Assembly (NCBI RefSeq): GCF_003610535.1
Contig: NZ_RAPN01000001.1
Span: forward strand, 1,537,320-1,601,319
Direction: 5' to 3'
DNA: 64,000 nt
Source of the DNA: Mangrovibacterium diazotrophicum
GTDB taxonomy: Bacteria > Bacteroidota > Bacteroidia > Bacteroidales > Prolixibacteraceae
Shown here: piece by piece, positions 942 through 44,430 of the stretch
Position numbering within the stretch: the first letter of the stretch is position 1
How the letters are laid out: the number at the start of each line of letters is the position of its first letter
Position numbers and translations under genes: made by a program
Notes under the pieces: generated by a model
Databases searched by the model: none
Seen by the model: the letters and a program-made list of their open reading frames with translations, nothing else
What the model was told of the DNA's origin: nothing

Positions 942-1652
942 CTAGTCAAAATTTAAAAACTCGCAAGGCATTAATACTTTGTTGGTAATTCGAACGCAAT
1001 AAATTGCTCCTTTAAACCAGGATATTTTATTCTGTCGAACACCAATAGACGTATTTCCCTCTTCTATTGGTGAAAAATCAACAGAACCTTCCAATTCTTT
1101 TTTTCTATTAACGAAGGTAGCCTGCTCACCATCCTTTACCGTAAATGCTATATGATACCATTTGTCCAATGGATGTGTCAGCACCGAATCCATTAACACG
1201 ACCCATTTCTCGTTCGAATCGAACATTCCATCCAAGTACCACGTTGTGTCATCCGATCGCATCTCCATTAAAACACGATCTTGCTTAACCGTACCTGTAT
1301 GAAAATAACGTTGTTCTTCTGTGCCACCACGATCAAACCGGATGAGCATTTCAATGGTAAATTCTGAATGATCTTTCAACGGCATCTCTTCCAGAAGGAA
1401 GCCATCATCCATACCATCAAATTGGACAGCATTGCCATAAGGAGAATCAATTATTTTAGGATCACCCAAAACCGTGACATCTTCTCGTTCTTTCAGCAAA
1501 TCTGTAATAATCCAAGTCTTCTTTGACATCACCTCCTGAGAGAACGCAGAGGAAGAAACAAACAAAAACAAGGAACAGAACACAAACGGCATAAACAAAG
1601 CGGCCCTGCGAGCGAAGACATTTCTATTATTTAAAACATTGAGTTGTTTCAT
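942..1652 (-). CDS. Secreted LamG-domain protein
   Basis: A 236-aa protein with a long N-terminal signal peptide (hydrophobic stretch at about residues 18-38, ending ...SSAFSQ) and a single concanavalin A-like/LamG_3 domain filling the rest. The pattern is typical: AVQFDGMDDGFLL, FTIEMLIRF, KWYHIAFTV, and a final strand GAIYCVRITNKVL. No catalytic motif is visible. It lies 32 nt after the esterase at 1685 and 46 nt before the carboxylesterase, so it is part of the PUL A operon. LamG domains of this kind commonly bind carbohydrate or act as spacers, and in this operon a periplasmic or surface glycan-binding role is plausible. The same fold is inserted in the GH2 enzyme at 7992. Confidence 0.8.
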   Translation of the reverse strand: MKQLNVLNNRNVFARRAALFMPFVFCSLFLFVSSSAFSQEVMSKKTWIITDLLKEREDVTVLGDPKIIDSPYGNAVQFDGMDDGFLLEEMPLKDHSEFTIEMLIRFDRGGTEEQRYFHTGTVKQDRVLMEMRSDDTTWYLDGMFDSNEKWVVLMDSVLTHPLDKWYHIAFTVKDGEQATFVNRKKELEGSVDFSPIEEGNTSIGVRQNKISWFKGAIYCVRITNKVLMPCEFLNFD

Positions 1653-1684: not shown

Positions 1685-2557
1685 CTAATATTTTCTCAGA
1701 AACCCTTGATTAATCATCCATTCCTCGAAAAGGGAAGGCCATTGGTCTGAGGGTTTGTTTTGTTTGACGACTGAAAATCCGTGTCCACCAGAATAAAAGC
1801 AATGCATTTCAACAGATTTCCCCGCATCTCTCCACTGCTCATAAAGACCCGGATTTCCTTTTGCAATCGGATCGTCAGTTGCCCAGGCAAGAAACATCGG
1901 AGGTGCATCTTCAGGAACACGATCTCCCAGAATGGCACCGCAATAAGCATAGACTGGCGCAACAAAATCGGGGCGGGACTCCGGCGTATAAGTCCGTCCA
2001 ACAGAACCCGTAACAGTCCCTCCCGCCGAATAGCCGACGATTCCTATTTTTGCCGGATCAATTCCGAATTCAGCTGCGTGGCTTCTAACGTACCTAATCG
2101 CCTCAAGTCCATCTGCAACCGCAAGACGAACAAATGGGATAAAAATTGAATCTCGTTGTGATTGCTCTGCTTTATCTAATTCCGGATAGGGAAAAGGCAT
2201 CAATCGATATTTTAAAATAAATGCTGTAATCCCTTTCTCTACACACCATTTAGCCGTCTCGGCACCTTCGTGTTGAAATGCCAGGCCCTGAAAGCCACCA
2301 CCGGGGCAAATTATAAGGGCAGTTCCATTCTTTTTGCCTTCTTCAGGTTGGATGACTGTCAACGTAGGCATAGAAACATTCCGTATCGTAACAATCTCTC
2401 CATTCTCATCACGGCGGGCTGTTTCTTCCCTTGTCAATAGTTCAGATCCTGGAGGAACCCCACCATCATATAGAGGAATAACCGTTTGTGCTTGACAAAC
2501 CACTGCTATTAGGTTAAAGAAGAGCAAGGAAAAGATTTGTAATGTTTTGTTCACCAT
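1685..2557 (-). CDS. Alpha/beta-hydrolase esterase, acetyl-xylan-esterase-like
   Basis: A 290-aa exported alpha/beta hydrolase with a signal peptide of about 24 residues ending CQAQ. The catalytic machinery is readable: oxyanion region CPGGGF (about 85-89), nucleophile elbow GYSAGG with Ser about 177, Asp in ATDDP about 229 and His in GGHGF about 259. This arrangement is typical of BD-FAE/acetyl-xylan-esterase-like enzymes that deacylate plant polysaccharides. It sits 20 nt after the GH78-like gene and 32 nt before the LamG gene, in one operon with the second esterase at 1-895. Two unrelated esterase folds together suggest an acylated substrate. The exact ester (acetyl, feruloyl or other) cannot be told from the sequence. 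Confidence 0.85.
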   Translation of the reverse strand: MVNKTLQIFSLLFFNLIAVVCQAQTVIPLYDGGVPPGSELLTREETARRDENGEIVTIRNVSMPTLTVIQPEEGKKNGTALIICPGGGFQGLAFQHEGAETAKWCVEKGITAFILKYRLMPFPYPELDKAEQSQRDSIFIPFVRLAVADGLEAIRYVRSHAAEFGIDPAKIGIVGYSAGGTVTGSVGRTYTPESRPDFVAPVYAYCGAILGDRVPEDAPPMFLAWATDDPIAKGNPGLYEQWRDAGKSVEMHCFYSGGHGFSVVKQNKPSDQWPSLFEEWMINQGFLRKY

Positions 2558-2577: not shown

Positions 2578-4359
2578 TTAATTTTCAACGATTACCGTGA
2601 TTTCATCAGGTTTCTCATAGGTTGTCCGAACTGATCCATCAGGCAGTTTCTGATGTTCAATCGTCAATATTCCATGAGGCGTCGGAAAAGTACCTTTGAC
2701 CCATTGCAGATCACCCAAATGAGGAGATAGTTTAATTACCTTGCAACCAGGCTCAACAACATTGACACCCAGCACATATTGAGTCAACCAAGCGGTAGGC
2801 CCGGATGCCCAGCCGTGGCATAGACTGTGACGATATCCAACATAACAGTAATCGCCATAATTAGCATGCACATCAATTTTCCCTTCGGGGATCAGTTCAT
2901 CTATCCGGGCAGCGTTTGTCATCCAGTCGATGTCAAAATCTTCCCAAAAAGTAGTGGCTCCCAAATCAAGCATAGCTCCCCAGTACTCCCGGATATTGTC
3001 AATTGCCCCCTGATAGTCTCCAGCCATTGCACGAGCAGTGAGCATATAATAACCATAGAAAGTTGACATTTTATGAACCCCATCCAGGCTCAGAGCTTTT
3101 TCATTTGCCAGTTGAGGGGAAATCAAACCAGATATCGCAAGCAAAGCAGCATCTTGCTTGGTGCCTGCCATTTCCGGTACATATTTCTCTATCTTCGCTA
3201 TTGATTGTTCACAAAGTGCAACGGTTCCGGTTTCATCCAGAATCCTACACAACTCGGCTCCAGCGTTAAAGGCCATCATCATCATAGCTTGGTAACCAGC
3301 ATCAGTTGCTTCTTTATTCTCACTGGTAGGCCAGTCCAAAAATCGTTCTCCGTCCAATATTTCCTTCCCGTCTTCATCAATATATTTTGCAAGTTGGTGG
3401 AGCAAACCAACCAAGTATTCTTTCTGTTCCTTGAGGTAGCTCAGATCACCTTGGTAATTATACCAATCCCGTTGTACCATTATCCACCACATGGAGTATG
3501 AACTTATGCCGTTCATCCAGTTGGGAAGTGGATATTGATTTTTGGCGAAATCCAGCGTTTTGGGTACGACATCATTGTGTCCAAAAACAGAATTGATGGT
3601 CATCACTTCGGGGTGCATATCGCCTACCCACACAAGTCGGTCACGTTTAATTCCATCCCAGAGATAATTCTGCATATTCAGATGTACGGTGTATGCTCCG
3701 GTCATCCATATTGTATTTAGTTTTTCATCATTGCATGTAAAAGAGCCCAGGTATGGAATATCCCGATACCTGAAAATAGCGCTTATCTCCTTGATCCGTA
3801 TTTTTGCATCAGCTCCCACCAAATCAATTCTGACAAAGCGAAAACCGGATTCACCGATTTCCAGGCGCCCCATATTCGTCAGGGCAACTTCAAAATCGCG
3901 CATCGCATGATCGTTTGTGGCCCCATTTACTCCTACATCAGTCATGGTCTCGCCCACCGACTCTCCCAATCGTATGCGCACTTTAACCGGAGGACCTGGA
4001 TTTCCACGTGAAGTAACAATTTCAATTCCACCCTGAATTTCTCTTCCAAAATCAAGAACAACTCCATGTTGCATTACTCCATCATTCTTGATGGTAAATA
4101 CATCCCCCCTGCTTAAATCCGATTGCCCGGTTGAAGGGTTCAACAACATTTCGGTGTTTTGTACGAATTTTCCGGTACTATCCGAAGTCCAGACAATTCC
4201 TTGTGGAACAATAAAAGCCTGGCTTAAATCCGATGTACGCACTCGTTGAAGATCCTGGTTATCAAAAACCGGTGGAAGTTGAGCCTTTACAACCGATACG
4301 CATAAACAAAGGATCGCCAATACGATTATTCGAATGTCTTTTATCTTTAAGTTTTTCAT
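2578..4359 (-). CDS. GH78-like alpha-L-rhamnosidase
   Basis: A 593-aa protein with a signal peptide ending VKAQ, an N-terminal beta-sandwich (about 30-200) and an (alpha/alpha)6-barrel of the bacterial alpha-L-rhamnosidase type. The signature LWDGIKRDRLVWVGD lies at about 233-247. Acidic motifs WEDFDIDW (about 478) and CHGWASGPTAWL follow in the barrel, and a small C-terminal beta-domain closes it. GH78 enzymes invert and release terminal alpha-L-rhamnose. The protein is shorter than multidomain GH78 enzymes because the extra N-terminal carbohydrate-binding domains are absent. It is tightly coupled to its neighbours (18 and 20 nt). Family assignment is strong; subfamily and linkage are not determinable by eye. 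Confidence 0.85.
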   Translation of the reverse strand: MKNLKIKDIRIIVLAILCLCVSVVKAQLPPVFDNQDLQRVRTSDLSQAFIVPQGIVWTSDSTGKFVQNTEMLLNPSTGQSDLSRGDVFTIKNDGVMQHGVVLDFGREIQGGIEIVTSRGNPGPPVKVRIRLGESVGETMTDVGVNGATNDHAMRDFEVALTNMGRLEIGESGFRFVRIDLVGADAKIRIKEISAIFRYRDIPYLGSFTCNDEKLNTIWMTGAYTVHLNMQNYLWDGIKRDRLVWVGDMHPEVMTINSVFGHNDVVPKTLDFAKNQYPLPNWMNGISSYSMWWIMVQRDWYNYQGDLSYLKEQKEYLVGLLHQLAKYIDEDGKEILDGERFLDWPTSENKEATDAGYQAMMMMAFNAGAELCRILDETGTVALCEQSIAKIEKYVPEMAGTKQDAALLAISGLISPQLANEKALSLDGVHKMSTFYGYYMLTARAMAGDYQGAIDNIREYWGAMLDLGATTFWEDFDIDWMTNAARIDELIPEGKIDVHANYGDYCYVGYRHSLCHGWASGPTAWLTQYVLGVNVVEPGCKVIKLSPHLGDLQWVKGTFPTPHGILTIEHQKLPDGSVRTTYEKPDEITVIVEN

Positions 4360-4377: not shown

Positions 4378-6498
4378 TTATGGTGCAGGTTTGAGCCCTT
4401 CCCATTTTACCACCCACGATCCGTCGTCTGGAAATCCGGGGGCGTTTCTATCGGGCGCACCATCCCAGCCTGCAGCCATCATTGCAACGGCGTATAACAG
4501 CCCACCATTACCTGGTAAATACGGACAAGGCCCACCGGTACACACCCCACGTTCATCATAGTGGTTTTTAGTACCAGCGTCCAACAATAGCGCGTCAACA
4601 GCCATTTTAGGTTCTCCAAGGCGCGCAGCAGCCATCGCTGTCCATGGAAAATCCCAGCCCCAGCAACGCTTCCACTGCCAAGTCTCCCATACTTTTAGCA
4701 GGCTGCGATGTGCTGTATCAAAATCCATATCTTTTTGAGGAGGTAGCATCCCCAAAACACCAACCGTATTAGGGTGTTCCCAGTTACGTTCTGTGTATGT
4801 ATCTTCCCACTCCGGCGAATGCAAATAAAGCCCGTCCTTCACCGGTAGTTCTGCAAGATTTTGTATGACTTCATCCCAATGAGAGTTTCTCTCAGCTCCC
4901 ATACGTTCCCGCCAAAGTTGAGCTTGTTGCAAGCCCCACTTCCAATAGGCCAAATCAAATATGTCATCCTTCGTGACTCCCTGTTCGCTCGGCGGCATAA
5001 CAGGATCCAAATGAAAGATCCCGGTTTGTTGGTCGCGAACAGGATAGTCTGCCATGTATTCTGCAGTTCCCTCAATAATCTCTGCCCACTTTTCAAGCGT
5101 TTCATTTGTCGGATGAAGTCGGTAATCTAACTCTGCAAAAAAGATGGGGTGAGGCTGTTTCCAAATTAGAACCTGATTCCCCTCCCACGGGGCTGTTCTT
5201 CCTCCCGGACTTGCTGATTTTTGCCACTGGAAACCCTTGTACCCGAGCTGCTGTGCCAGTTCACGTGCCGTTGGGATGAAACGCTCGTAGATTGTCAAAG
5301 CACTATCTGCCATTTCCCAACGATCCCACAAGGCATAGTGCGCCAAATGCCACCAAATCATTTCCATATGAAATTGTCCCCGCCATGAATCGATTCCCAT
5401 CAATCCAACTTCGGCAGGCGGATAACTTCCGGCAGACTGTACTGCCGTCAAATATTGCGAAAGAACAATGCGACGCTCCAATTCCTCCCAACGTTCATCT
5501 TTACTTTCAGATAGGTCTATTACGCCGCCTTTTTCCCAAAAGGCAGGCCAATGTTCTTTGTTTGCTTGTTCTGTCTCCTGAACGCCGGGGAGACTCTTTT
5601 TCAATGGATTAGAAGAAAAAGCACAGGTAAATTGCATCGAGGATACACTATTAGCCTCTAGACGCCACGTATTTGGTTCGGATTCTACCGGTGCCTTCAG
5701 TATACCACCATCACTCCAGTTTAAAGTCGTATAATAAACCACATCATCTATTTCCCTACGAAAATCAGCACGTTTATCACTCCTTTGATCATTCATGCGA
5801 ATTGTGGAGTTCCCCTCAGTTCGTTTAAAATTGCCCACCCAAGGTTTATTCCGTTGAATCGCAGGATAAGGAAAATCGATTGCAATTCCCAACTCTCCAT
5901 TCTCGAAAAGTGGTGATTCAATCCGAATTGAAACCATATCCGCAGAGGGATCTACGCAGGTTTCTACCTGCACCGGTTTGCCTTCCACTGAAAAAGAAGA
6001 AGTCTGAATCCCGGTCCATAAATCCATCGTCCGGGATAAATTCTGAATTTGTTCCGTAGCTACCGATTGGCCATCAGATTTGACCAAACGGATTCGCCCA
6101 AGATTAAAGCTGTGGGGATTGTCAAACATATACTGACGAATAGCTGAAGTTCCTTCGGGGAAAATATCTGGCCCGGTATTGCGTCCATTCTGAAAAGTAC
6201 CGGTAGAAGGAATCTGATCCTTAGTTACACCTTCCGGAAGAGGAAACGAATGCCAGGCCCAGTGTGCCATCGTATTCCCACCGAAGGTCTGTAATCCGGT
6301 TCCGTCAACATTAAAGCAAAACTCACCATTACCAAGCGGAATTTGTCCGTCCAGATCATTCCACTCAATATTATGCCTGGTTACCAATGCATGTCGATCA
6401 ATTAATCTTGCAGGCTTATCAGCATTACACTGAATACAAAAAACTGCAACTAGGCAGAGAATTACGATCGTTATTATAGAACTATTTTTTCGGTTCAT
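4378..6498 (-). CDS. Unassigned exported protein, candidate (alpha/alpha)6 glycosidase
   Basis: A 706-aa putative lipoprotein (hydrophobic leader ending IQC at Cys about 24). I do not recognise a named family. The N-terminal half looks like a beta-sandwich beginning HALVTRHNIEW, QIPLGNGEFC and GTGLQTFGGNTM. The second half is alpha-helical and rich in Trp/His/Glu, as in clan-L-type (alpha/alpha)6 barrels (compare GH65/GH95 layout): WRGQFHMEMIWWHLAHYALWDRW and APWEGNQ. The end carries GWDGAPDRNAPGFPDDGSW. The 722-aa protein at 12047 has all these motifs, so the two are paralogues in one operon. It lies between GH43 and GH78-like genes (14 and 18 nt), so a glycosidase or binding role is likely. 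No reaction is claimed. Confidence 0.75.
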   Translation of the reverse strand: MNRKNSSIITIVILCLVAVFCIQCNADKPARLIDRHALVTRHNIEWNDLDGQIPLGNGEFCFNVDGTGLQTFGGNTMAHWAWHSFPLPEGVTKDQIPSTGTFQNGRNTGPDIFPEGTSAIRQYMFDNPHSFNLGRIRLVKSDGQSVATEQIQNLSRTMDLWTGIQTSSFSVEGKPVQVETCVDPSADMVSIRIESPLFENGELGIAIDFPYPAIQRNKPWVGNFKRTEGNSTIRMNDQRSDKRADFRREIDDVVYYTTLNWSDGGILKAPVESEPNTWRLEANSVSSMQFTCAFSSNPLKKSLPGVQETEQANKEHWPAFWEKGGVIDLSESKDERWEELERRIVLSQYLTAVQSAGSYPPAEVGLMGIDSWRGQFHMEMIWWHLAHYALWDRWEMADSALTIYERFIPTARELAQQLGYKGFQWQKSASPGGRTAPWEGNQVLIWKQPHPIFFAELDYRLHPTNETLEKWAEIIEGTAEYMADYPVRDQQTGIFHLDPVMPPSEQGVTKDDIFDLAYWKWGLQQAQLWRERMGAERNSHWDEVIQNLAELPVKDGLYLHSPEWEDTYTERNWEHPNTVGVLGMLPPQKDMDFDTAHRSLLKVWETWQWKRCWGWDFPWTAMAAARLGEPKMAVDALLLDAGTKNHYDERGVCTGGPCPYLPGNGGLLYAVAMMAAGWDGAPDRNAPGFPDDGSWVVKWEGLKPAP

Positions 6499-6512
6499 AT
6501 CATTTTTCTTTA

Positions 6513-7847
6513 CTATTCATTTTCAGAATTATTGGCGAATTCAAACCAATCTAATTCAAACAATTCGTTCTTATCACCGGAAAAGGCCAACCAGACAGCA
6601 TGAACACCCTCAACCTTTTTCATTTTTGAAGTCACTGTGTCCCAATCGCCGGACTCGTCTCCAGAAATATTCAAGACTCCAACTTCAGGCCCCCAGGGCT
6701 GATCAATCCTCACACTTATTTTTCCTCCATTTTGAAGAGCTTTTACCCTAAACTGAATTTGATCTGCTCCATCTTTGAAGTCAATATACTTGTAGGCCAC
6801 CTTATCTCCATTTTGAATGCCTCCAAGTTTTTCGTTCATCGTTTCAAATAATTCAATCCTCGAATTACCCAAAAGCAAACAGGCGCGTTCTGCTTCAATT
6901 TTATCCAGCGATTTTAGCGGAGGTCCAGCCCCCTGAGAAGTCATCTCCACTTCATTTATGCTACCATCCATATTAAAAGTGATGGGCTCAACACATGCTT
7001 TTCGCATCATTCTACTGTTGTGTGTGGATCGATGATAGAAGACATACCATTGACCTTTAAATTTTACCACAGAACCATGGTTATTCCATGTTGACGGATC
7101 ACAATTGTCATTATCAACTATAACTCCACCATATTTAAAAGGCCCCCAAGGCGAATCACTGGTAGAATACCCAATACAGGTTGGTTGGTTTCCCCTGCTT
7201 ATATCGGAATAAACAAGATAATAGATTCCGTTTCTTTTAAACATAAAAGCGCCTTCGTGAAAAAAGTGTTCCTTCTCAGTAGCTAATTCGGGAACAATGG
7301 ATAAGGAATCGATCTCCGTCATATTAGGCTTCAATCTGGCAATTTTCGCATCGAATTGACCCCAGATATAATAGGCCTGTCCATCATCGTCAATGAACAC
7401 TGCCGGATCGATCTCTTCTATTCCTCCGAGTGCAATTGGGGCCCCGGAGCTAAACGGTCCTATTGGGGATTTACTCGTAGCAACCCCTTCTGCAGCCTTA
7501 CGGTCTGGCTGGCAATAATACAGATAATACAATCCATTTTTGAATTGGCAGTCGGGTGCATAAAGTTCCTTATCAGAATAAAGGACTTCGTCGTTTTCGC
7601 CTCTCGATGCAAAAACATTTTCCTCCATATCCCAGTGAAGCAAGTCTGAGGTGGAGAGTACATGATAATCATAAGAACAGTAATACTCCGTACTTTCATC
7701 CAATGACCCGTAAACGTATAATTTACCATCCTGCCACACATGAGCTGAAGGATCAGCCAGATACACCCCAGCCGGAACAATCGGATTTTGGCAGAATGTT
7801 GAATTCGAAATAGTTAAAAAAAGAAGTAGCAATGGATAGTAAGTCAT
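6513..7847 (-). CDS. GH43 family glycosidase with C-terminal CBM6-like domain
   Basis: A five-bladed beta-propeller GH43 enzyme. The three catalytic acids are visible: Asp in LADPSAHVW (general base), Asp in EEIDPAVFID (pKa modulator) and Glu in FHEGAFMF (general acid). After the propeller, about 120 residues resemble a CBM6-type beta-sandwich (SRIELFETMNEKLGG ... FSGDKNELFELDWFEF). I chose the ATG at 7847 because it starts directly at a signal peptide (MTYYPLLLLFLTISNSTFCQ). An upstream in-frame ATG at 7934 would put 29 polar residues in front of it. GH43 members are mostly alpha-L-arabinofuranosidases or beta-xylosidases. The product lies between the GH2 and an unassigned protein in the PUL A operon. 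Confidence 0.88.
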   Translation of the reverse strand: MTYYPLLLLFLTISNSTFCQNPIVPAGVYLADPSAHVWQDGKLYVYGSLDESTEYYCSYDYHVLSTSDLLHWDMEENVFASRGENDEVLYSDKELYAPDCQFKNGLYYLYYCQPDRKAAEGVATSKSPIGPFSSGAPIALGGIEEIDPAVFIDDDGQAYYIWGQFDAKIARLKPNMTEIDSLSIVPELATEKEHFFHEGAFMFKRNGIYYLVYSDISRGNQPTCIGYSTSDSPWGPFKYGGVIVDNDNCDPSTWNNHGSVVKFKGQWYVFYHRSTHNSRMMRKACVEPITFNMDGSINEVEMTSQGAGPPLKSLDKIEAERACLLLGNSRIELFETMNEKLGGIQNGDKVAYKYIDFKDGADQIQFRVKALQNGGKISVRIDQPWGPEVGVLNISGDESGDWDTVTSKMKKVEGVHAVWLAFSGDKNELFELDWFEFANNSENE

Positions 7848-7991
7848 AGCCGAGTGAAACCTGGAATACGCCCCTTCTTTTGCTATTGTATTTCCAGTAT
7901 CCATAACTACATCTTTTTTCGTGCTTAATCTCATTTGAAATTGACCTTATCTGGGTTTATTATTCTGTCACAACTGAAAATGTCGAAGTGA

Positions 7992-10900
7992 CTATTTAAC
8001 TGGTTTTATCGTAATTTTTCTCGAATACTCTTGCGGATACACCCGGTATGAATTCAACACCGGCTGGGAGGTATCGCCAACACCGGTAGTTTTATAATCC
8101 AAATTAAGCGTGATTCCATCGGCCTTCTCCAGTTGAAATGTATAGAGTGCTTTGGTTATGTTTTCCGTCGTGTATGCATGAACATTGAAATTGAATTGCT
8201 GATCCATCGAAAACTCAAGGCCTTTACCCTCTCCATTTGTCATTTTCAAATAGCGGTTGTCCATTCTCAGACCGTAATCCTGAGGAACTAGATAAGGCTC
8301 GTACATGTCATCTACTGTCGAATTATAAATCCCAAGTCTGTAACCACTTTTGCGATCGGGATAATTTTCCTGAGGTCCCCTTCCATACCATTCTACCTGG
8401 TCATACTCATTATCCAACATCAGACATATTCCGATTCGAGGTAGCAATTGGGGCATTTGACCTTGCGGCATTACATTGTGATTAATCTCGATAGTCCCAT
8501 CTCCATATACCGTGTATTCATAGATACTTTCAAATCCGCCTATTGCACCGGCAGCTCCTCCTTCAATTAGGTAATCGAGGGATGCCGCATTCTGGTCTTG
8601 TCTTGAGAGAGCCACTTCCCGGACATAAATGCACACGACTCCTTCTGCCTCCTCCGCTCTTACCTCAAGCGGAATAAACTGGAGCTCATCCACTCCATTG
8701 GAATACAAATCCGTAGCCATAGTTCGTCCATACTCCGGTTTCCAGTTAGGCTGTCTGAAGCTGTAGCCTGCCCACCTGTCATTTTGGTTGTTAACCGGCG
8801 CTCGCCAAATATTTAGTTTGATTGGCGCCTTTAGCAGTTCATCTCCATCGACCAACATGGATTTAAGTTCGCCTGAATTTTCGTCGAAAGTGTATGAAAA
8901 TCCTTCTCCTGTAATGATATGGTTCCCCTCTCTGTTTGATAATGTTGCCGCCAGATTGGTCGGAACCCTGGGGGGTAAGGGATCGTTCCAGCCAGTTAAC
9001 TCAAACTGGTCCCATGAAATTTCATGGCCTTTTTTTGCCCATATTTCATCCTCCTTTAATGAGGAACTGATATTGAGCCGATACTCTTTACCACGAATAA
9101 TCTCAGGCTTTTTATAGTTGACCATCACTTTAGAACGATTTCCCGGCTCGACATTCAATTCCAAAACACCTTGCTGAAGCACCTTATCATCTTCTGTCAG
9201 TGTCCAGGTCGATTCCCAGTGGGAAGCATTTGTAAAATCGCTCCGGTTCCAAACTTCCAGTACACCTTTTTCAGTACTCAATAGCCTAAAAGAGAGTGGC
9301 TGTGCTGACTTTTTCATTTGCCATAACTCTGGCTGAGGTTTACGGTCTGGCCAAATACTACCGTAAGTTCTGGCCCCCATTCCATTACTATAAAAAGCAC
9401 CTCCATTAGTTTCTTTTTCAAAATCCAACCATAAAACGGCATCCGAAGGATTGAGGTTGCTGGAAGGTGATATGGCTTTTGCAAACAACCTGACATTGTC
9501 AATCTTCGAATCGCAGACATAGTCTTTCGTATCCTGCGTGTGAATTTCAGCGTTTCGACCAATATTCACAGGAAACGGCAAATTTTTGATTTTCCCACTC
9601 ACTTTCGCCGATCCAACTTCAACACCATCGATAAAAAGTTTCATCTGAGCACCATCATAAGTCGCTAAAATGTTATGCCAATGGTTCTCCCAAATTTCAG
9701 GCAGAGGTACACTTAAAGTTTGTTTTTCCTTGGTGAAAATGTAGAAATCCAGTGAATCTTTCCCGTTTTGTATCACCCCGAACTGGTTACTTCCTTTGGT
9801 CAAAAAGGAGCCAGCGCTACTATTCAGGTAGCGGGGAAATACATCCATCATGATTGACAACTGATCTCCCGATATTTCAAGGTTATTACTTCTATAAACT
9901 TCAACCCACTCATCATGTCCGTTAAGATCTAGGCACTTTCCGTTAACTCCATTTACCAATTTTGAATTGCCCATTGCGTAGGTTGGTGTTTCAAAAGGAG
10001 ATTTATCCGACAAAATACGAACCGAGTCGGTTAAACCGTTGCTCACAAAATCCCATATAGCACCACCCATAATTCTTGGGTGCCTATAAATAACGCGCCA
10101 GTACTCATCAAGCGCTCCTCCTCCATTACCGGTCACGGATAGATACTCGTCCATGAACGATGGCCGGCTATCAGTTGTGTCAAGTCCCAGATTAACTTCT
10201 TCCTGTAACGGAGACGGATAACGGGGACCGATTATGTCTTCGGCAGGATGAACCATATCATTGCCGCCATACATCCAGTAACGCGTAGGATCGAGCCGCT
10301 TACCTTCCTTTACGACCTCTGTGATATTTTCACCCTCACCTGCCTCATTACCAGCGCTCCAAAATAAAATACTTGGATGGTTTCGATCCCGAAGCACTGC
10401 CTTCCGAGTCCGATCTCTATACATTTCGGTGTACTCAGGCATATCCGACACATACTGTGTGGCGTGACACTCATTACCCACCTCATCAACGATAAACAAT
10501 CCGTATTCGTCAGCCAATTCCAAATACCTATTAACGGGTGGGTAGTGGGATATACGTACCAGATTGAAGTTGAATTGCTTTAGAAGCTCCATGTCTTTAC
10601 GGATGGTCTCTTCATCCACAACATGCCCCATTTCCGGGTGTTGCATATGCGTATTCGTACCATTCAGTTTTACCGGTACGCCATTGAGGTAAAAAACATT
10701 CCCAATGATTTCCGTCTTTTGAAAGCCAACTTTAGTTTGAATTTGGTCGATGATTTTGCCTTCATTATCAAGCAACTCCATCTTCAAATCATAAAGATTT
10801 GGAGTTTCAGAAGTCCATTTTTCCGGTTGTTTGATTAATTCGGAAAGATTGATCGTTTGCCTACCTTTTTTAACACTGAACTTTGAGCTGCCAAAGCTGG

Positions 10901-11768
10901 CAATCTTCCGGCCACTTCTCTCCAATGTTGCATTCAGCTTATAATCCTTTGTACTCTCTCCATAGTTTTTGATATCGATATTAAGCGATAGCTTCGAATC
11001 TGTATAACTTTCATCAAAATCGGTAATTACCTGCCAATCAAAGAGACGAACCTCAGGTGATGCGTACACCCATACATCGTCAAAAATACCAGCTAAACGC
11101 CAATAATCCTGGCCTTCCAAATAGTATCCATCAGAGAACTTCAACACGAAAACAGCAATCTCATTTTTTCCGGGTTTCAAATAGGATGTGATATTGTATT
11201 CAGAGGGCTCTTGTGCACCTTCATTATACCCAACCTCCTGACCATTTACCCATACAAAGGAAGCTGAAGCAATTTTCTCAAAATGCAAAAATACTTCCTG
11301 CCCTTGCCAATCAGCCGGCAAATCAAATGACTTTCTGTATGCTCCAGTAGGGTTGTATTCCTTCGGAACTTTCGGAGGAACAACCGCAAATTCTCCTGCA
11401 TTTTGCCTTGCTGCTTCCGATTGCGCATATTGGTAACCCAAACTGATATTACGGAACATTCGATCGCCGTAACCCTTCATTTCCCAATTAGAAGGTACCT
11501 CAATTAAGTCCCATTCAGAATCATCGAAATCCATTTCGAAAAAATCGGACGGTATACCTTCGGGAACATCACTATAAAAGAATTTCCAATTGCCGTTAAG
11601 TAATATGTTTTGATCAGGTATATGAAATGCTCTCCCTTCCTCCTGCCCGAGCTCAAATACCTCGGTATTCTCAATGTATTTTGACCGGTTTTGTATGAAG
11701 CCGCCGTCCTGTGTCCACCCACTGCTTAAATAAAGCGTGCATACGATTAGTATAAATAGTTTTTTCAT
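7992..11768 (-). CDS. GH2 beta-galactosidase with LamG domain inserted in the catalytic barrel
   Basis: A 1258-aa exported GH2 enzyme (signal peptide ending SSGWTQ). The order is sugar-binding, Ig-like and TIM-barrel domains, then a large LacZ-like C-terminal part with VEWYGRGPQENYPDRKSG. Acid/base Glu is about 475 (WSAGNEAG) and the nucleophile Glu about 541 (MDEYLS). Between the barrel strand GGAIWDFVSNGL (about 568-579) and the returning barrel element GSIWPDRKPQPELW (about 803-816) lies an inserted LamG domain of roughly 190 residues (about 595-785: CLDLNGHDEWVEV, ATYDGAQMKLFIDG, KIDNVRLF). By family it releases terminal beta-galactose in the periplasm. The 278 nt upstream to 12046 hold no gene, strong hairpin or -7 box that I can see. 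Confidence 0.92.
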   Translation of the reverse strand: MKKLFILIVCTLYLSSGWTQDGGFIQNRSKYIENTEVFELGQEEGRAFHIPDQNILLNGNWKFFYSDVPEGIPSDFFEMDFDDSEWDLIEVPSNWEMKGYGDRMFRNISLGYQYAQSEAARQNAGEFAVVPPKVPKEYNPTGAYRKSFDLPADWQGQEVFLHFEKIASASFVWVNGQEVGYNEGAQEPSEYNITSYLKPGKNEIAVFVLKFSDGYYLEGQDYWRLAGIFDDVWVYASPEVRLFDWQVITDFDESYTDSKLSLNIDIKNYGESTKDYKLNATLERSGRKIASFGSSKFSVKKGRQTINLSELIKQPEKWTSETPNLYDLKMELLDNEGKIIDQIQTKVGFQKTEIIGNVFYLNGVPVKLNGTNTHMQHPEMGHVVDEETIRKDMELLKQFNFNLVRISHYPPVNRYLELADEYGLFIVDEVGNECHATQYVSDMPEYTEMYRDRTRKAVLRDRNHPSILFWSAGNEAGEGENITEVVKEGKRLDPTRYWMYGGNDMVHPAEDIIGPRYPSPLQEEVNLGLDTTDSRPSFMDEYLSVTGNGGGALDEYWRVIYRHPRIMGGAIWDFVSNGLTDSVRILSDKSPFETPTYAMGNSKLVNGVNGKCLDLNGHDEWVEVYRSNNLEISGDQLSIMMDVFPRYLNSSAGSFLTKGSNQFGVIQNGKDSLDFYIFTKEKQTLSVPLPEIWENHWHNILATYDGAQMKLFIDGVEVGSAKVSGKIKNLPFPVNIGRNAEIHTQDTKDYVCDSKIDNVRLFAKAISPSSNLNPSDAVLWLDFEKETNGGAFYSNGMGARTYGSIWPDRKPQPELWQMKKSAQPLSFRLLSTEKGVLEVWNRSDFTNASHWESTWTLTEDDKVLQQGVLELNVEPGNRSKVMVNYKKPEIIRGKEYRLNISSSLKEDEIWAKKGHEISWDQFELTGWNDPLPPRVPTNLAATLSNREGNHIITGEGFSYTFDENSGELKSMLVDGDELLKAPIKLNIWRAPVNNQNDRWAGYSFRQPNWKPEYGRTMATDLYSNGVDELQFIPLEVRAEEAEGVVCIYVREVALSRQDQNAASLDYLIEGGAAGAIGGFESIYEYTVYGDGTIEINHNVMPQGQMPQLLPRIGICLMLDNEYDQVEWYGRGPQENYPDRKSGYRLGIYNSTVDDMYEPYLVPQDYGLRMDNRYLKMTNGEGKGLEFSMDQQFNFNVHAYTTENITKALYTFQLEKADGITLNLDYKTTGVGDTSQPVLNSYRVYPQEYSRKITIKPVK

Positions 11769-12046
11769 TTTTATTGGTTAGTAGTTTATCTTACCCGTGT
11801 TTTCTTTCTTTGAATACCTCTCTCCGAATCTATCTGTCCGCAGAAATTGGCTGGATCATCTGAAAAGAAAGAAACAAGGATCAGTTCAGTTAAAACTTAA
11901 TGGTTTTGAGGACTTACATACTAGACGGTTCAGTCGACATCATCCACTATTCAAAAATTGAATATTATCCGATTTTATTTGACAAAACTCCTGTCATGGA
12001 TAAAAGTCATATCGAGATACTTCTTGTATTTTCGTTATTTCGGGCA

Positions 12047-14215
12047 CTAAGGAGCTCGCTTAAGCCCCTCCCATCTAACAATCCAAGAACCATCATCCGG
12101 AAATCCGGGAGCATTCCGATCCGGTGCGCCATCCCATCCTGCAGCCATCACCGCTGCAGCATAAAGTAATGCGCCATTTGTAGGCAGATAAGCACCTCCT
12201 AATCCCCGATTGATCCCGGCAATATCAAAAGCTGTCCCCAAGCCTCCAAGCAAGGATTCAACAGCCCCTTCTGCGTCTCCCATTTTGGCCTGCCCTACAG
12301 CTCCCATCGCAACTCCCCATCCCATATTTCTGCTGCCAAAAGCGCCTTCTGATGATTGGCTTATCATCTCTTTCATTTTAGCATAAGTTCGAGTGGCCGT
12401 TTCGAGTGTGATCGCCTCCGATGGAGGCATTAATCCAAGAATACCAGTAAGGCGCAATGGCCGTCCTTGACTGTCGACATAAATACCATCTTTAATTGGA
12501 AACTTTACAAGATGATTTAGGACCTTGTCCCAGTTCGGTTCTCGACCAAGCCCCATACGTTCTCTCCAGGTTTGTCCCTGTTCAATTCCCCAGTGCCAGA
12601 AAGCCAACACTTGTGGATTATCTCGAGACTCTCCCCACTCTCCTCTTCCCATATTTAATTCAATGTGATAAGTCTCGGTCTCCTTGTCCAACGTCAAAAA
12701 GTCAACCATATAATCCACTGTACCGAAAACGACTTCGGCCCATTTCTCAAGAGTTTCGCCTGTTGGGTTTAGTCTGTATTCCAGTTCTGCAAAATGTAGC
12801 GGTTGAGGTTGTTTCCATAGTAATGCCTGATTTCCCTCCCACGGAGCACTGCGCCCTGAAGGAGTAGCTGATTTTGGCCACTCTAAACCTTTAAACCCAA
12901 ACTGCTTTGCCCTAGCTCGCGCAGTTGGCACAAAATGTTGATATGCTCGTACCGCCTCATCAGTCAATTGCCAACGATCCCAAAGCGCGAAATGTGCTTG
13001 GTGAAAGAAAATAATTTCAAAATGAAATTGTCCCCGCCAGGGATCTATATTCATCAGACCACTCTCGGATGAGGGCCAACTACCTGCAGCTTGAACAGCG
13101 GTTAAATATTGCGAAAGTACGATGCGACGTTCCAATTCAAACCACCTTGGATCAGTACTTTCAGAGAGATCAATAGCTCCTCCATTCATCCAAAAGTTTT
13201 CCCAGTATACTTTGTTAGCCTCTCGTGTTGATTCAAAATCAGCAATTATATCACCAATTGGATTAGGTGAATACGTGGTACTAAATTCTAAGGTTGACAG
13301 TCCATTTCCGTCAAGATACCAAACCTTATCCCCATCAAAAATCGAGGAAGTCACTTTAGCCCCTTCAGAGTAGCTCATCGCAACATGATAAGTGAAATCA
13401 TCCACCTGTCTTGTAAAGTCAGCTCTGACTTTACTGGTTTGAGTGAGGGTTGTTAAGTTATTTTCGGTTCGCTTAAAATCACCGACCCATTCAATTTCAT
13501 TGTTTAACGTCGGATAAGGAAAATCCAATGCCACTTTTATGATGCCGTTTGCTATTAAATCAGACTCAACTCTCACTGAAACCTGGTCGGTATGCGGATG
13601 CACATAAGTTGTTACCGTCACTTGTTGACCACTTCCTCCCATTTCAGCGGGATTGACCCAAACTCCTTTGTTTATCCATTCACCGCTCACGACAAAACTT
13701 GTGGTGTGTGTACCGGTCCATAGATCGATGCTTCTTTTGGCATTGCTTGTGATATCCTCAACGGTTAACTCAGCGCCATCATATCTGACAAAACGTAAGC
13801 GCCCCAAATTTACAATGTGGGGATTATCATACATCCAATTTGCAATCGCTTGTTTTCCCGTCGGAATAGTATCTGGCCCAATGTAATGATCTCCATTTTT
13901 CACATTGATGAATGAACCGGTTGGTGGAATTTGGTCAGGACTAATGCCTTGAGGTAGTGGAAATGAATGCCATCCCCAATGAGACATTGTGTTACCACCA
14001 AAGGTCTGAAGTCCTGTTCCATCCACACCAATACAAAACTCACCGTTCCCCATCGGGATCTGCCCTCGCTCCTCCCATGGCCACCGGATGTTATGTCTTG
14101 TCACCAAAGCATGACGATCTATTGGTTTGGGAGTTGTTGCGTAAGCGCCAACTGATGTATGTAGAAATACAAGTAGAAAAAAGGTAAAGATTGATGAATA
14201 TTTTTGGGGGTGCAT
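12047..14215 (-). CDS. Unassigned exported protein, paralogue of the 706-aa protein at 4378
   Basis: A 722-aa secreted protein with signal peptide (FFLLVFLHTSVGAYA). It shares its whole architecture with the 4378-6498 product: HALVTRHNIRW, QIPMGNGEFC, GTGLQTFGGNTM, RRIVLSQYLTAVQAAGSWP, APWEGNQALLWKQPQPLHFAELEYRLNPT and the C-terminal GWDGAPDRNAPGFPDDGSW. Where the paralogue has a lipobox Cys this copy has none visible, so the two may sit in different places (free periplasmic versus membrane-anchored). It is the first enzyme-type gene after SusC/SusD, beyond a hairpin at 14338-14379. An N-terminal beta-sandwich plus a Trp/His-rich helical domain suggests a glycosidase of an unassigned family; activity is unknown. 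Confidence 0.75.
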   Translation of the reverse strand: MHPQKYSSIFTFFLLVFLHTSVGAYATTPKPIDRHALVTRHNIRWPWEERGQIPMGNGEFCIGVDGTGLQTFGGNTMSHWGWHSFPLPQGISPDQIPPTGSFINVKNGDHYIGPDTIPTGKQAIANWMYDNPHIVNLGRLRFVRYDGAELTVEDITSNAKRSIDLWTGTHTTSFVVSGEWINKGVWVNPAEMGGSGQQVTVTTYVHPHTDQVSVRVESDLIANGIIKVALDFPYPTLNNEIEWVGDFKRTENNLTTLTQTSKVRADFTRQVDDFTYHVAMSYSEGAKVTSSIFDGDKVWYLDGNGLSTLEFSTTYSPNPIGDIIADFESTREANKVYWENFWMNGGAIDLSESTDPRWFELERRIVLSQYLTAVQAAGSWPSSESGLMNIDPWRGQFHFEIIFFHQAHFALWDRWQLTDEAVRAYQHFVPTARARAKQFGFKGLEWPKSATPSGRSAPWEGNQALLWKQPQPLHFAELEYRLNPTGETLEKWAEVVFGTVDYMVDFLTLDKETETYHIELNMGRGEWGESRDNPQVLAFWHWGIEQGQTWRERMGLGREPNWDKVLNHLVKFPIKDGIYVDSQGRPLRLTGILGLMPPSEAITLETATRTYAKMKEMISQSSEGAFGSRNMGWGVAMGAVGQAKMGDAEGAVESLLGGLGTAFDIAGINRGLGGAYLPTNGALLYAAAVMAAGWDGAPDRNAPGFPDDGSWIVRWEGLKRAP

Positions 14216-14337: not shown

Positions 14338-14379
14338 ATCTAAGGAAGGTATCTTCTTCTGAAAATACCTTCCTTAGAT
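14338..14379 (-). terminator. Terminator-like hairpin after PUL A susD
   Basis: A perfect 15-bp inverted repeat (arms 14338-14352 and 14365-14379, 12-nt loop) begins 20 nt after the SusD stop at 14399. The tract after it on the minus strand is only moderately T-rich (ATCTTTC), so partial termination is likely. It would set SusC/SusD expression above that of the enzyme genes. Confidence 0.65.
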
Positions 14380-14398: not shown

Positions 14399-15955
14399 TT
14401 AATAACCTGAATTCTGAGGGAATGTCCCCATTAACTCTATTTCTGATTGAGGAATAGGGTAATTAACCATATAGGGCTGCATAGTTCTCCCTGCTACATT
14501 CGTGGAATTTGAGCCGACCTTAAAATATAAGCTCACTCGTTCAGCTAATAAACCTAGCCTCTTCAGCACAAACCAGCGAGAATGCTCAAAGGCCATCTCT
14601 CTTGCATGCTCCTCGAGGTAAGAATCTAAACTTATGGATGTATAGTCGAAGGACGAGTCATTATTAAATGCTCTACGTCTAACCATATTAATGTATTCCA
14701 AGGCCGTAGCATCTGTGTCTCCGCCCAATCGCCAATGTGCTTCTGCTCCGAAGAGTAGTGTCTCCGCAAAGCGATAATGGATATAATTTTGGTAACTATC
14801 TGTAGATGTTGCCGGTTTGTTTTCGTCGTGAAACTTTTTAAGACTCCAATGGTACCGTCTGTAGTTGTCTTCAGTTGAAACAAATGGTTGCCCAAAATTC
14901 GGACTATCTGGATTATTCACAACATATGCACTTTGATCATAGTAATAAGTAACATATCGCTGGTCGTTTGTCTGATCATACAAGGACTGCAAATAATCGT
15001 TAGGAAATGCCCATCCAAATGCGTTTCCACCGTATTCAACTGCTTGAACCATTTCGCCACTTCCAGCTTCGTAATAACGATTGTTGAAAAAGCTTGCGTA
15101 AGCAGTTGCTCCACCACCTGCTGATTCGTTTCCACTTGCCAACTCTTGGCTGAATTGATAAGTATATAATGATTCTGCATTATTTCTGTCGCCAGAAAAT
15201 ACCTCATCCACCCCTACTAGATGATATGTTCCATTTTCAACGATAGCATCATACTGATCTGCAGCTTCCTGCCAATCTTCCTGCCACATCGCAGCGTTAC
15301 CTCTTAGCTGTCTTGCAACACCTTGTCCGTAACGTCCTTGTTCGACTACCCAATCAAGTTTTGATATTGCAAAATCAAGGTCACTGTTTACCAAAGCCCA
15401 AATGTCGGCAGGTTCTGCCGCCGCATATTCCACGTCTTCATTTGGTTCCGTCTTAAGTACAATGTTGTGATAAATAGTATATAGTTCCATGTATACTTCA
15501 CCCCGCATTGCTCTCACCTGAGCTACAAGTACATCTTTTTTCGTTTCGTCCATATCAATATTTGGAGCATTTGCAATGAGAGCGTTGCATCGTTCAATTA
15601 TTAAATACAATTGATCCCATTTGCCTGTAGGTCCGATTGCCGCAGGGTTATATTGATTCGGATCATAAGCCCAACTTGACGCAATTCGAGCAACGCCTAA
15701 GTCAGTGGCGATTCTGAAAAACGCACTTGCTTGTATAGGTGCATCTGTTCCTGCAGGATAATACAACTCTCGCATCAAATTATAAAGTCCAGTTACACCT
15801 GACTCTAAACCAGCCTCTGTGGTGTATAAAAACTGTGCATCAATAACGTCAATAGGCTTTTCATCTAATAAACTATCACATGAGCTTATTAACAAGAACG
15901 ACAATAACAGAATATAGATATTCTTGAATTTATTTAATTTATTAATTAATTTCAT
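14399..15955 (-). CDS. SusD/RagB-family outer-membrane glycan-binding lipoprotein (PUL A)
   Basis: A 518-aa SusD homologue. The signal peptide ends at lipobox Cys26 (LLISSC), followed by DSLLDEKPIDVIDAQFLYTT, the usual start of SusD proteins. TPR-like helices run through the middle (MRGEVYMELYTIYHNIV, ADIWALVNSDLDFAI). The C-terminal signature is intact: YIHYRFAETLLFGAEAHWRLG, ALEYINMVRRRA, EEHAREMAFEHSRWFVLKRLG. SusD proteins lid the SusC channel on the cell surface and capture oligosaccharide. The gene follows SusC by 23 nt, so the two form the transport pair of PUL A. The glycan bound cannot be read from the sequence. Confidence 0.95.
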   Translation of the reverse strand: MKLINKLNKFKNIYILLLSFLLISSCDSLLDEKPIDVIDAQFLYTTEAGLESGVTGLYNLMRELYYPAGTDAPIQASAFFRIATDLGVARIASSWAYDPNQYNPAAIGPTGKWDQLYLIIERCNALIANAPNIDMDETKKDVLVAQVRAMRGEVYMELYTIYHNIVLKTEPNEDVEYAAAEPADIWALVNSDLDFAISKLDWVVEQGRYGQGVARQLRGNAAMWQEDWQEAADQYDAIVENGTYHLVGVDEVFSGDRNNAESLYTYQFSQELASGNESAGGGATAYASFFNNRYYEAGSGEMVQAVEYGGNAFGWAFPNDYLQSLYDQTNDQRYVTYYYDQSAYVVNNPDSPNFGQPFVSTEDNYRRYHWSLKKFHDENKPATSTDSYQNYIHYRFAETLLFGAEAHWRLGGDTDATALEYINMVRRRAFNNDSSFDYTSISLDSYLEEHAREMAFEHSRWFVLKRLGLLAERVSLYFKVGSNSTNVAGRTMQPYMVNYPIPQSEIELMGTFPQNSGY

Positions 15956-15978: not shown

Positions 15979-18900
15979 CTAAAATCCAACTTGAATACCT
16001 GCAGTTACTGAAATCGACTCAGGATATGAATAGGCATTGTTTTCGGGACTAAAAGACTGAAAATCTGTCACCGTAATTAAATTGTGCCCTGTGACGTAGA
16101 CTCTAAATTTACTCAAGCTCCATTTATCAATAATTTTCTTTGATAATGAATAACCTAGTGTTACGTTTTGCAGTCTAAAAAACGAAGCGTCCTCCAAACC
16201 GGCTGTTACGTTACCCAAATCCATAAATCGTCTACCTCTGGCTTCCAATGGTCTAGGGCGATCTCCTGTTGGATTTTCCGGTGTCCAATAATTTACTTTA
16301 ACCCCCGACAAGATACCTCTCGGATTACCACCAGTCTGATAGTCGACTAAAAACGGATTAAACTTGGTAACACCTTGAACTGTATACAGACTCATTGAGA
16401 AATCAATATTCTTGTATTCCATACTCAAATTGAACGTACCGTACCAGTCTGGAGTTTGGCTTGTAATAACCCGGTCGTCAGCATTCAGTTCACCATCATT
16501 AGGATCTCTGTCCCAAACTTGAATATCTCCCAATTCGGCATTAGGTGTGTTCGAATTGTCTATTTGTTCTTGAGAACTAAAAATACCAACCATTTTATAG
16601 TCATAATAAGCATCAATTGGCTTTCCAATAAACCAACGGTTGGCAACATCATCATCTTCTTTTCCGTCACCATCTTTGTCCTCGCCATACAAACTGATTA
16701 TTTTGTTTCGGTTACTATTAATAACAACGCCTGCGCTTAAGGTGAAATCTTCCTTTTTAATGATATCAGCATTTAGCGAAGCCTCAATACCTTTATTTTC
16801 GATCTCACCAACATTGGTTTTGCTAACAGAGTAACCTGTTACTGCCTCGAGTGCACGATCTACAAGTAAATCTTTAGTTCTGGTATTATAAAATTCAACC
16901 GTCCCACTTAACCTGTTATCAAGAAAACCATAATCAAGCGCTAAGTTTAGCGTCGTAGATGTCTCCCATTTAAGATCAGGGTTAGGAAGGCTGGCGCCGG
17001 GCAAAAGACCTCCTGTCTTAACTCCATTAATAATATAATCCCTGGGCACTAAAGTACTGAGGCTTTGATAGGGCTCTATCCCCTCATTACCAACACTACC
17101 GTAACTAGCCCTTAGTTTTAACACATTGATACCACTGTTAGCCATGAAATCTTCATGATGAACATTCCATCCACCTCCTACTGCCGGAAAATATCCCCAT
17201 TTGTTATTAGCACCAAACACACTGGAGCCATCTGCACGCATTGAAGCTGACAAATAGTACTTACCTGCAAAGTTATATTGAGCCCGACCTACAAAGGAAA
17301 CCAGATTTCTATCTAATCCCCCAATCGAAGTTTGATTTGTACCTGCCGCTGATATCGCGTAAATCCCTAAATTATCATTAGGAAAATTCTTTGCTTCATT
17401 GGTTAAATAATAGGTCTTTGTATTTAAAACACTTTGTACAAATGTTAGATTTAATTTATGATCCTCATTATCAAAATCAAAATCATAGTTAACGATATTC
17501 TCCAATTGCCATGATTTATTCTCATCATAAGTGATTGAGCCCAACCCTTGACCTCCGGCCTGAATACCTAACAATGATTTAGAAGAGTTGTAAATGATGC
17601 TTTTTCTGTTTACAGTCGTTCTGCTGGCATTAAATCTATAGCTGAATCCTTTGAACGGTTTAACATCTAAAAACACGTTTATGATGTCTCTCTTATCATC
17701 AATTGTATTGGTTATTTCATTTAAATCCAATAAGGGGTTGAAACTATCCTGAACATCACTTGGATGTATTTTTAGACTACCGTCCTCATTATACACTTGC
17801 CCTAAAGGAGAAGTAGTTATAGACCTTAACAACATTGACCCTGCATCATCGGTATAAGCAACCCCTGGATTATCCTTATTCGAAATTTGGTAGGATGTAT
17901 TTACACCCAATTTTAGCCAATCACTAATTGTTTGGTCTAGATTTAAACGAATCTGACCTCTCTTAAAGTCTGACCCTTTAATAAGTCCTTCTTGTCTAAA
18001 GAAATTAAAACTACTGTAAATCTTCGTCTTTTCTGTACCTGCAGCAACACTAATATCTGCATTCGTGATATTAGCATTGCTGTTAATAATCTTGTCCTCC
18101 CAATTTATGTAGTCACGCGAGGCTATGGTCTCAAGTTCTGAAGCCGAAAAGACTTGATCATCGGGTAAAAATACCCCTCCGTTAGATGCTCTAAAAGCTT
18201 CACGCTTGTACGCGATAAATTCATCACCGTTATAGGTTTCAAAATGCTTTTGAAGGTTCTGCACTCCGGAATAACCTGAAAAATTAATCTGAATTTTCCC
18301 TTCTTTCCCTCTTGCAGTGGTTATTAATATGACACCATTTGATGCACGCGCCCCATATATTGCCTGCGCAGCTGCATCTTTGAGTACTTCCATGGAAGCT
18401 ATATCATTGGGGTTGACGTCATTTAGGCTGGAAACTTGAACGCCATCTACAATTACCAATGGGTCATTACCACCGTTTATCGATCTTTTTCCCCTTATCT
18501 GAATCGTTGAGGAACTTCCGGGACTCGCATCGGCAGTAGAAATGAGAACACCGGCAGCTTTACCTCTAAGCATTTCTCCTACATCCGATGAGGTTGTTTT
18601 CACCAGTTCGTCTGCCTTTACCGAAGTAACAGAACTGATAACATCGCTTTTTTTCTGCACACCGTAGCCAACGGCAACAACTTCTTCCAGACCAATCGTA
18701 CTTTGATCTAAAGTTACATTGATTGAATTTAGTCCATTTACTGGGATTTCTTTGGATTCCATTCCCACAAAAGAAAAAATCAATGTTGCGTTAGCAGCCA
18801 CATTACTCAATGAATAATTTCCGTCGAAGTCAGTGATCACACCTTGGGTTGTTCCTTTCACCAAAATCGTAACTCCGGGTAATGGAGCCCCCGTGGAATC

Positions 18901-37121: not shown

Positions 37122-37143
37122 ATCTTTTCGTCTATCTAGTTTC

Positions 37144-39348: not shown

Positions 39349-39384
39349 TTGTATTTATTCTTTATTTAAACTTCATGATTGTCT

Positions 39385-39450: not shown

Positions 39451-39542
39451 CTAAAACGGAAATGTCCGCTTTTAAAGGTCGATGGTTCTAATCCCAGTTG
39501 TATTTCGTTGCTATTCTACCGAATCCTTCATTCAACAATTTC

Positions 39543-44381: not shown

Positions 44382-44430
44382 AGTTATGTAGGTTATCGTT
44401 TTATGCTATAAGGCGAATTTGAATGTGAAA

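Follow-up and report, generated by a model that had tools for sequence, protein, structure and literature searches.

The closest described relatives of the proteins considered here belong to three glycoside hydrolase (GH) families: GH65, with the kojibiose hydrolase FjGH65A and the phosphorylases; GH95, with alpha-L-fucosidases and alpha-L-galactosidases; and GH139, the 2-O-methyl-fucosidases of rhamnogalacturonan-II. For FjGH65A, a passage of PMC8626586 names Glu472 as the general acid and describes a serine pair that binds phosphate in the GH65 phosphorylases. For GH95 and GH139, an Asn is proposed as the base in a part of PMC12282258. We examined two proteins, here called A and B, that are encoded in a stretch of 64,000 nucleotides from Mangrovibacterium diazotrophicum (contig NZ_RAPN01000001.1; hereafter the window, with positions counted from its first letter). 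We read A, with moderate confidence and in part from predicted structure, as an inverting glycosidase of exo type whose family has no name yet in the libraries used. That family, to which B also belongs, is widespread and probably made up of glycoside hydrolases that are exported, have an (alpha/alpha)6-barrel and share ancestry with GH65, GH95 and GH139.

Paralogy, fold and remote kinship

Protein A (706 aa; 4378..6498, minus strand) is exported and retains every active-site residue that the family conserves, and protein B (722 aa; 12047..14215, minus strand) is its diverged paralogue, as judged from alignments and models. An earlier note on this DNA, made from the letters and open reading frames (ORFs), had described two proteins of these lengths with common motifs over their full length. 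Both ORFs and the four motifs were verified: PLGNGEFC and PMGNGEFC at residue 54 of A and B, respectively, GTGLQTFGGNTM at residue 66 in both, APWEGNQ at residue 436 of A and 457 of B, and GWDGAPDRNAPGFPDDGSW at residue 677 of A and 693 of B. Aligned end to end, the proteins are identical at 361 of 735 columns (49%, 712 bits), and they have 56 exact 6-mers in common, where the maximum over 500 shuffles of B was 2. A third copy, C, lies 2.2 Mb away in the same genome (40% identity), and the closest named record for A is from Mangrovibacterium lignilyticum (93% identity). It is plausible, as the earlier note had suggested of the pair, that one protein (A) is lipid-anchored and the other free. 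A has a Cys at residue 24 with Ile-Gln directly before it; a Gln at the -1 position of the Cys does not make a textbook lipobox. The nearest relatives of A differ at the end of the signal, which reads ...SIYSC in one (L006) and lacks a Cys there in another (L005).

The AlphaFold2 model of A (mean predicted local distance difference test [pLDDT] 93.7; predicted template modeling score 0.92) combines a beta-sandwich with an (alpha/alpha)6-barrel, and the model of B (mean pLDDT 86.0, from 29 sequences) shows the same layout, as the earlier note had read it from the sequence. When the model of A was compared with the PDB by Foldseek and VIA-align, FjGH65A (7fe3) ranked first, with a Foldseek E-value of 3.7e-25, a Z-score of 38.2 and a root-mean-square deviation (rmsd) of 3.1 over 585 aligned residues at 14% identity. 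The GH65 phosphorylases gave Z-scores of 24.1-32.5, those for kojibiose and 2-O-alpha-glucosylglycerol lying at 29.5-32.5, and human PGGHG scored 30.2-31.8. The best GH95 structure was 7kmq (Z 28.2, rmsd 3.7, 607 aligned), followed by 5z3a, which is titled just 'Glycosidase' and covers the barrel (Z 27.8), the GH139 structure 9hyq (Z 27.3) and a bacterial glucoamylase (Z 25.5). B retrieved much the same list with lower scores (Z 31.9 for 7fe3). At the level of fold, the GH65/GH95-like (clan GH-L) layout that had been proposed for the pair is thus borne out, with GH139 close behind.

Since a phmmer search of the PDB sequences with A alone returned a chance match and nothing else, a profile of 41 members was used instead. 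It matched 7fe3 with an E-value of 1.5e-9 (profile positions 124-665), 3wiq with 3.5e-7 and PGGHG with 1.6e-4. GH139, whose active site has Gln411, Asn412, Glu561 and Trp683, was not reached by this profile at E <= 10 and was compared with A by fold. Beyond the fold, GH139 resembles the family in its plant pectic substrates and its setting in polysaccharide utilization loci, and B in having an acid-less relative that is proposed as possibly glycan-binding. Single hhalign comparisons, with alignments built from the M. diazotrophicum genome and relatives, gave E-values of about 1e-14 with GH65 and about 1e-10 with GH95. Models and profiles together indicate that the kinship of the A/B family to GH65 and GH95 is real but remote.

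The earlier note could place the proteins in no named GH family, and a hidden Markov model search agreed: no Pfam or NCBIfam model matched A or B at its cut-off. A gave sub-threshold matches to PF14498 (20.6 bits, cut-off 27.7) and NF053734 (19.2 bits, cut-off 800), and B gave no Pfam or NCBIfam match at E <= 1. PF14498 was the commonest weak Pfam match, found at E <= 1 in 20 of the 41 members (best 8.7e-5); next came PF03632 (6/41, best 2.5e-4), PF18961 and PF03636 (3/41 each) and PF22124 (2/41, best 0.0015), with no match of PF03632 or PF22124 to A or B at E <= 1. The DUF5703 and Glyco_hyd_65N_2 models show weak similarity to the N-terminal domain of the family, A being below the cut-off. 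"Unclassified" here refers to Pfam, NCBIfam and annotated plasmid records; CAZy/dbCAN models lay outside the comparison. A literature search, largely at title level, gave no recognized description of the family.

Active-site residues of the family

We aligned 103 members (101 clusters at 95% identity) and number residues after full-length A. A tree of these members, rooted at midpoint, splits into clade I with 30 members, including A and B (support 0.81), and clade II with 73, including copy C (support 1.0). The proposed general acid is Glu505 (PPSEQ; codon 4984..4986, minus strand). HMMER aligns it with Glu472 of FjGH65A, as do the seven of eight hhalign runs in which the segment appears, and in three of four hhalign runs with GH95 it meets the Glu of the SPE motif. 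A Glu occupies this position in 103/103 members when counted within one column, because most rows of the mafft alignments have the acid motif displaced by one column. E363, H377, E379 and H384 are invariant in all 103 members, K427 is conserved at 1.00 of 103, and none of the 102 members that cover Y660 and N664 departs at either. D616 is present in 100 of 103 members and absent solely in the clade of B. H575 occurs in 99 of the 100 members with that column, is an Arg in L049 and is deleted in the clade of B. The invariant residues, together with H575, W613 and D616, are kept in 22 of 22 distinct further proteins, which comprise 18 from genomes of the phylum and four from five other records, none above 74% identity to any of the 103. 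Of these, 21 are most like clade II and one (L168) is most like clade I, so they speak mainly for clade II.

The GH95 enzymes resemble A in fold, in the acid motif, in a G-W motif (GWD/GWS) and in a His, since His575 of the EHP segment (codon 4774..4776, minus strand) aligns with the HRH segment of GH95. The base of the GH65 hydrolases, Glu616 of FjGH65A, has no acidic equivalent in A: HMMER places Val652 there, in a column that holds Y, L, V, I or F in 97 of 102 members, and the hhalign runs with kojibiose hydrolase that show the place have a gap. Pro575-Ala576 of FjGH65A, serines in the phosphorylases, align with W613-G614 (HMMER) or C612-W613 (hhalign), W615 and D616 coming after W613-G614, and Lys538-Gln539 is replaced by E574-H575 (HMMER). 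The Asp of the GH95 DGN motif, presumably Asp766, likewise lacks an acidic equivalent in these alignments and falls on Pro662 of A in three of four hhalign runs. Where GH95 has an Asn pair, A has an invariant H-x-E (H377, E379) in an uncertain alignment. Over four hhalign settings and three alignments, the acid was nearly stable, the region of E379 was unstable and the place of GH95 Asn423, the base that Asp766 would activate, had no confident alignment. By these alignments, the family has an active-site signature of its own that appears to match neither of the two known base arrangements, which is a new observation.

Two carboxylates are candidates for the base. Glu379 (FHMEM; codon 5362..5364, minus strand), which may be the base or position it, is our first choice because it is invariant, is kept in B, as E363 is, and lies in the segment of the GH95 Asn pair, where the local alignment is unstable. 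Asp616 (WGWD; codon 4651..4653, minus strand), close to where the GH65 phosphorylases form their phosphate site, comes second.

That the family merely represents a remote GH65 branch, for which the existing class would suffice, is improbable. The best fold and profile match is indeed a GH65 kojibiose hydrolase, with a two-domain fold shared over 585 residues and a matching acid, and six of 41 members weakly match PF03632 (best 2.5e-4). However, identity is 14%, every GH65 model stays below its cut-off for A and B (NF053734 with 19.2 of 800 bits for A), no acidic residue stands at the place of Glu616, and E574-H575 replace K538-Q539. Membership in GH65 was rejected on what was found at the base (Glu616) and at the phosphate-site serines, and kinship at the level of a superfamily is proposed instead. 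The earlier note had held that a confident hit to a characterized family, or a predicted structure with no barrel or pocket, would speak against it. Neither arose, since a barrel is predicted and the similarity to GH65 comes with 14% identity and without the catalytic base. Far less probable still is that A is a phosphorylase, as most bacterial GH65 proteins are. The fold does resemble the kojibiose and 2-O-alpha-glucosylglycerol phosphorylases (Z 29.5-32.5), but the phosphate-binding serines, as given in a passage of PMC8626586, align with W613-G614 or C612-W613, after which an Asp follows, and the family proteins carry export signals.

Divergence of protein B

When the three proteins of the B clade are set aside, 90 positions are common to at least 97% of the remaining 100 members; B departs at 19 of them and its two orthologues at 18 each. 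The next most departing members are L049 (14) and L068 (14, gaps that are mostly truncation), then the count falls to 6, the median being 0. In B the H575 segment is deleted, D616 has become Gly634 and W613 has become Met631, and its clade is also changed at W383, H450 and R626. The acid, E363, H377, E379, W615 and N664 are kept; among their equivalents in B are Glu526 (the acid), H398, Glu400, W633 and N680. That B and both orthologues have all lost H575, W613 and D616, as read from the alignments, is new, and it agrees with the suggestion of the earlier note that two copies point to a diverged function.

The pairwise ratio of nonsynonymous to synonymous substitutions (dN/dS) for B is 0.064 with M. 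lignilyticum (dS 1.46) and 0.090 with Draconibacterium (dS 1.89, near-saturated); for A it is 0.110 with M. lignilyticum. These ratios indicate that B is under purifying selection rather than decaying and is maintained with a different pocket. Orthologues of B are known from three genomes, and the M. lignilyticum and Draconibacterium loci keep both A and B. Among 295 other genomes of the phylum no further orthologue of B was found; 18 of them have family members, which are 32-40% identical to B and without exception retain the conserved residues missing from B. In the comparison of the window with M. lignilyticum, dS is 1.46 for B, 0.33 for the adjoining GH2 gene and 0.51 for SusD, and B or its neighbors may have been exchanged by recombination.

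Two explanations of B are about equally likely, and neither reaches even chances. B may still be catalytically active, its -1 subsite altered to take, for instance, a bulkier or differently substituted sugar. The retained acid and E379 equivalent, the joint retention of A and B in the M. lignilyticum and Draconibacterium loci and the strong purifying selection are consistent with this reading, while the loss of D616 and H575 speaks against it, as of the other 100 members just L049 departs at either (Arg at 575). Alternatively, and tentatively, B and its orthologues may be pseudo-glycosidases, non-catalytic proteins that bind glycan or otherwise help beside an active A. The change at 19 of 90 near-universal positions, including the H575 deletion, W613M and D616G, argues for a lost activity, given that these three residues are kept in 18/18 and 5/5 further records, and the low dN/dS values (0.064 and 0.090) fit a protein kept for such a role as well. 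The model of B is weak at 521-530 (pLDDT 54, around the acid) and 621-630 (44, before Gly634); a few other blocks are also low and its alignment is smaller. There is a precedent in GH139, where a protein without the acid is inactive and is proposed as possibly glycan-binding in a part of PMC12282258. That relative lost its acid, whereas B retains Glu526 along with H398, E400, W633 and N680.

Gene neighborhood, spread and proposed role

The context of clade II was counted at 57 loci of at least 9 kb, with GH106, the polysaccharide lyase (PL) types PL1-, PL11- and PL22-like, pectate lyase, GH105-like and GH28 genes taken as pectin markers when they were separate neighbors. At least one established pectin gene was found at 35 of these loci and two or more kinds at 18. 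The neighbors included GH106 (21 loci), DUF4450 (16), GDSL (11), GH105-like (11), PL1-like (8) and GH28 (7), and once DUF4450, GDSL and fused domains were counted too, as the widest set, the figures rose to 38 loci, 25 of them with two or more. Two members (L085, L087) begin with a GDSL domain, a homologue of the esterases found at such loci. Four of Prevotella type (L033, L036, L053, L065) have a C-terminal domain in which Pfam names just a TSP3 repeat. We read it as a PL1-type pectate lyase from homologues beside other members and from its motif type, which we take to be PL1-like. Judged by gene context and supported by these two kinds of domain fusion, clade II is tied to pectin/rhamnogalacturonan-I (RG-I) loci, a link that is likewise new. 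Copy C lies between GH106 and GH2 genes in a locus that also has PL22, DUF4450, two GDSL esterases, PL11 and GH88, with a GH95 gene about 15 kb away. On two Asticcacaulis plasmids the gene stands among pelA, oligogalacturonate lyase, GH88, kduI and DUF4450, with GH28 in one. DUF4450 proteins recur beside the family (L026:10022-13303; L126:7721-11452; L169 and L170) and are candidate pectin enzymes; a literature search for DUF4450 with pectin gave no paper.

For clade I, a search for a tie to RG-I came out negative, with a pectin/RG-I marker at 2 of 21 loci. The substrate of A hence rests on its own few loci, which share GH78-like, GH43+CBM6, GH2 and esterase genes. GH3 occurs in Aestuariibaculum, together with the uronate gene UxuA and GntR and SDR genes, and GH3, GH39 and a GH79-like gene in Draconibacterium. 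In our reading, A would act on a glycan that contains rhamnose and glucuronate, perhaps one like arabinogalactan-protein, a link weaker than that of clade II to pectin.

All genes of the window's A/B locus run on the minus strand. A GH43 + CBM6 protein (6513..7934) and a GH2 beta-galactosidase-type protein with an inserted LamG-like domain (7992..11768) are encoded between A and B. Beyond A lie genes for a 593-aa GH78-like alpha-L-rhamnosidase-type protein (2578..4359; PF17389, E 4.5e-17), a carbohydrate-esterase-like alpha/beta hydrolase (1685..2557) and a LamG-like protein of concanavalin fold (942..1652). SusD (14399-15955) and SusC (15979-19332) stand on the side of B, and the adjoining locus encodes GH39-like (21442-23010) and GH3 (23022-25361) proteins, types that also neighbor the orthologue of A in Draconibacterium (L107). 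The earlier note had placed A and B in one operon. The genes from SusC to LamG do share a strand, but gaps of 278 bp to GH2 and of 183 bp to SusD (measured between ORF ends) set B apart, the latter gap holding a hairpin. This hairpin (14338-14379, minus strand) has 19 pairs, a 4-base loop and a weak T-tail. Terminator-like matches in the SusD-B region (three, shuffle mean 2.2) are not above expectation, but among these three it has much the longest stem, and it might be an attenuator between the transporter and enzyme genes. The gene at 25535-26806 encodes a 423-aa protein that resembles a lipoprotein, contains three internal repeats similar to one another and has no Pfam family over cut-off; it is conserved beside SusD in Draconibacterium and is possibly a surface glycan-binding protein. 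A further locus (34626-54156) with GH2, GH43, GH27-type, ricin-lectin, hybrid two-component system regulator and GH30 genes is reminiscent of type II arabinogalactan degradation.

Relatives were found at 73 loci in Bacteroidota, Opitutales, Planctomycetia, Armatimonadetes and Clostridia by a scan that relied on exact peptides of A and is hence biased. Family members are present in 37 of 100 genomes of the order, that of M. diazotrophicum included, and in 18 of 295 other genomes sampled from the phylum. Nine plasmid records from Asticcacaulis, Arthrobacter, Paenarthrobacter, Streptomyces and Nonomuraea carry relatives, seven of them labeled 'hypothetical protein', one in an unannotated record and one with no feature at the site. 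Two records from human feces named 'Bacteriophage sp.' (MT835948.1, 6053-8125; MT836299.1, 5233-7302) hold full-length relatives of 33% and 32% identity and are probably bacterial contigs filed as phage.

We propose that the glycan is of a rhamnose- and uronic-acid-containing plant type and that its oligosaccharides would be imported via the SusC/D pair. From these, A would remove one alpha-linked sugar in an exo-acting (pocket-type), anomer-inverting manner, E505 protonating the leaving sugar and E379 or D616 activating water. Hydrolysis would be expected over phosphorolysis because C-W-G residues replace the GH65 phosphate-site serines and the protein is exported. The +1 site may hold a uronic acid, since the invariant K427 aligns with Trp391, a +1 residue of FjGH65A. 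B, with its fold, acid and E379 equivalent kept and its pocket partly lost, would be a re-specialized enzyme or a glycan-binding pseudo-enzyme.

Several points weigh against this account. A predicted fold and gene context are not proof of catalysis, and the alignments around E379 and WGWD, the two candidate places of the base, differ between programs. GH78 and GH106 already cover rhamnosidase activity. Even in the widest set, 19 of the 57 clade II loci have no marker, and clade I, with A and B, has one at just 2 of 21. The sole yardstick for the context counts is six GH106 genes (11 rows grouped) in the 5.8 Mb genome of M. diazotrophicum, and the neighbor queries were drawn partly from this family's own loci. 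Moreover, the Streptomyces, Paenarthrobacter and Arthrobacter plasmids have no adjacent pectin genes, with GH97 in one and GH3 in two.

A bolder version is speculative and, as a whole, rather unlikely. In it, A and B would stand for an as yet undefined GH family within the GH65/GH95/GH139 superfamily, with members in Bacteroidota, Actinomycetota, Alphaproteobacteria and other groups. Its base would be a carboxylate, E379 or D616, and so would lie elsewhere than the GH65 Glu616 or the GH95/GH139 Asn. The family would act on a pectic linkage without an assigned enzyme family, and B, a conserved paralogue with part of its pocket lost, would be a non-hydrolytic glycan-handling partner in Mangrovibacterium and Draconibacterium.

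If A is a glycosidase as we propose, a large group of 'hypothetical' proteins would gain a family name as glycosidases, many of them for pectin-type glycans. A base that has moved or been replaced, a Glu in GH65 and a proposed Asn in GH95 and GH139, is already a known trait of the superfamily, and the family would add another solution. With A and B, an intact active site could be compared with an eroded one that nature has kept at its side.

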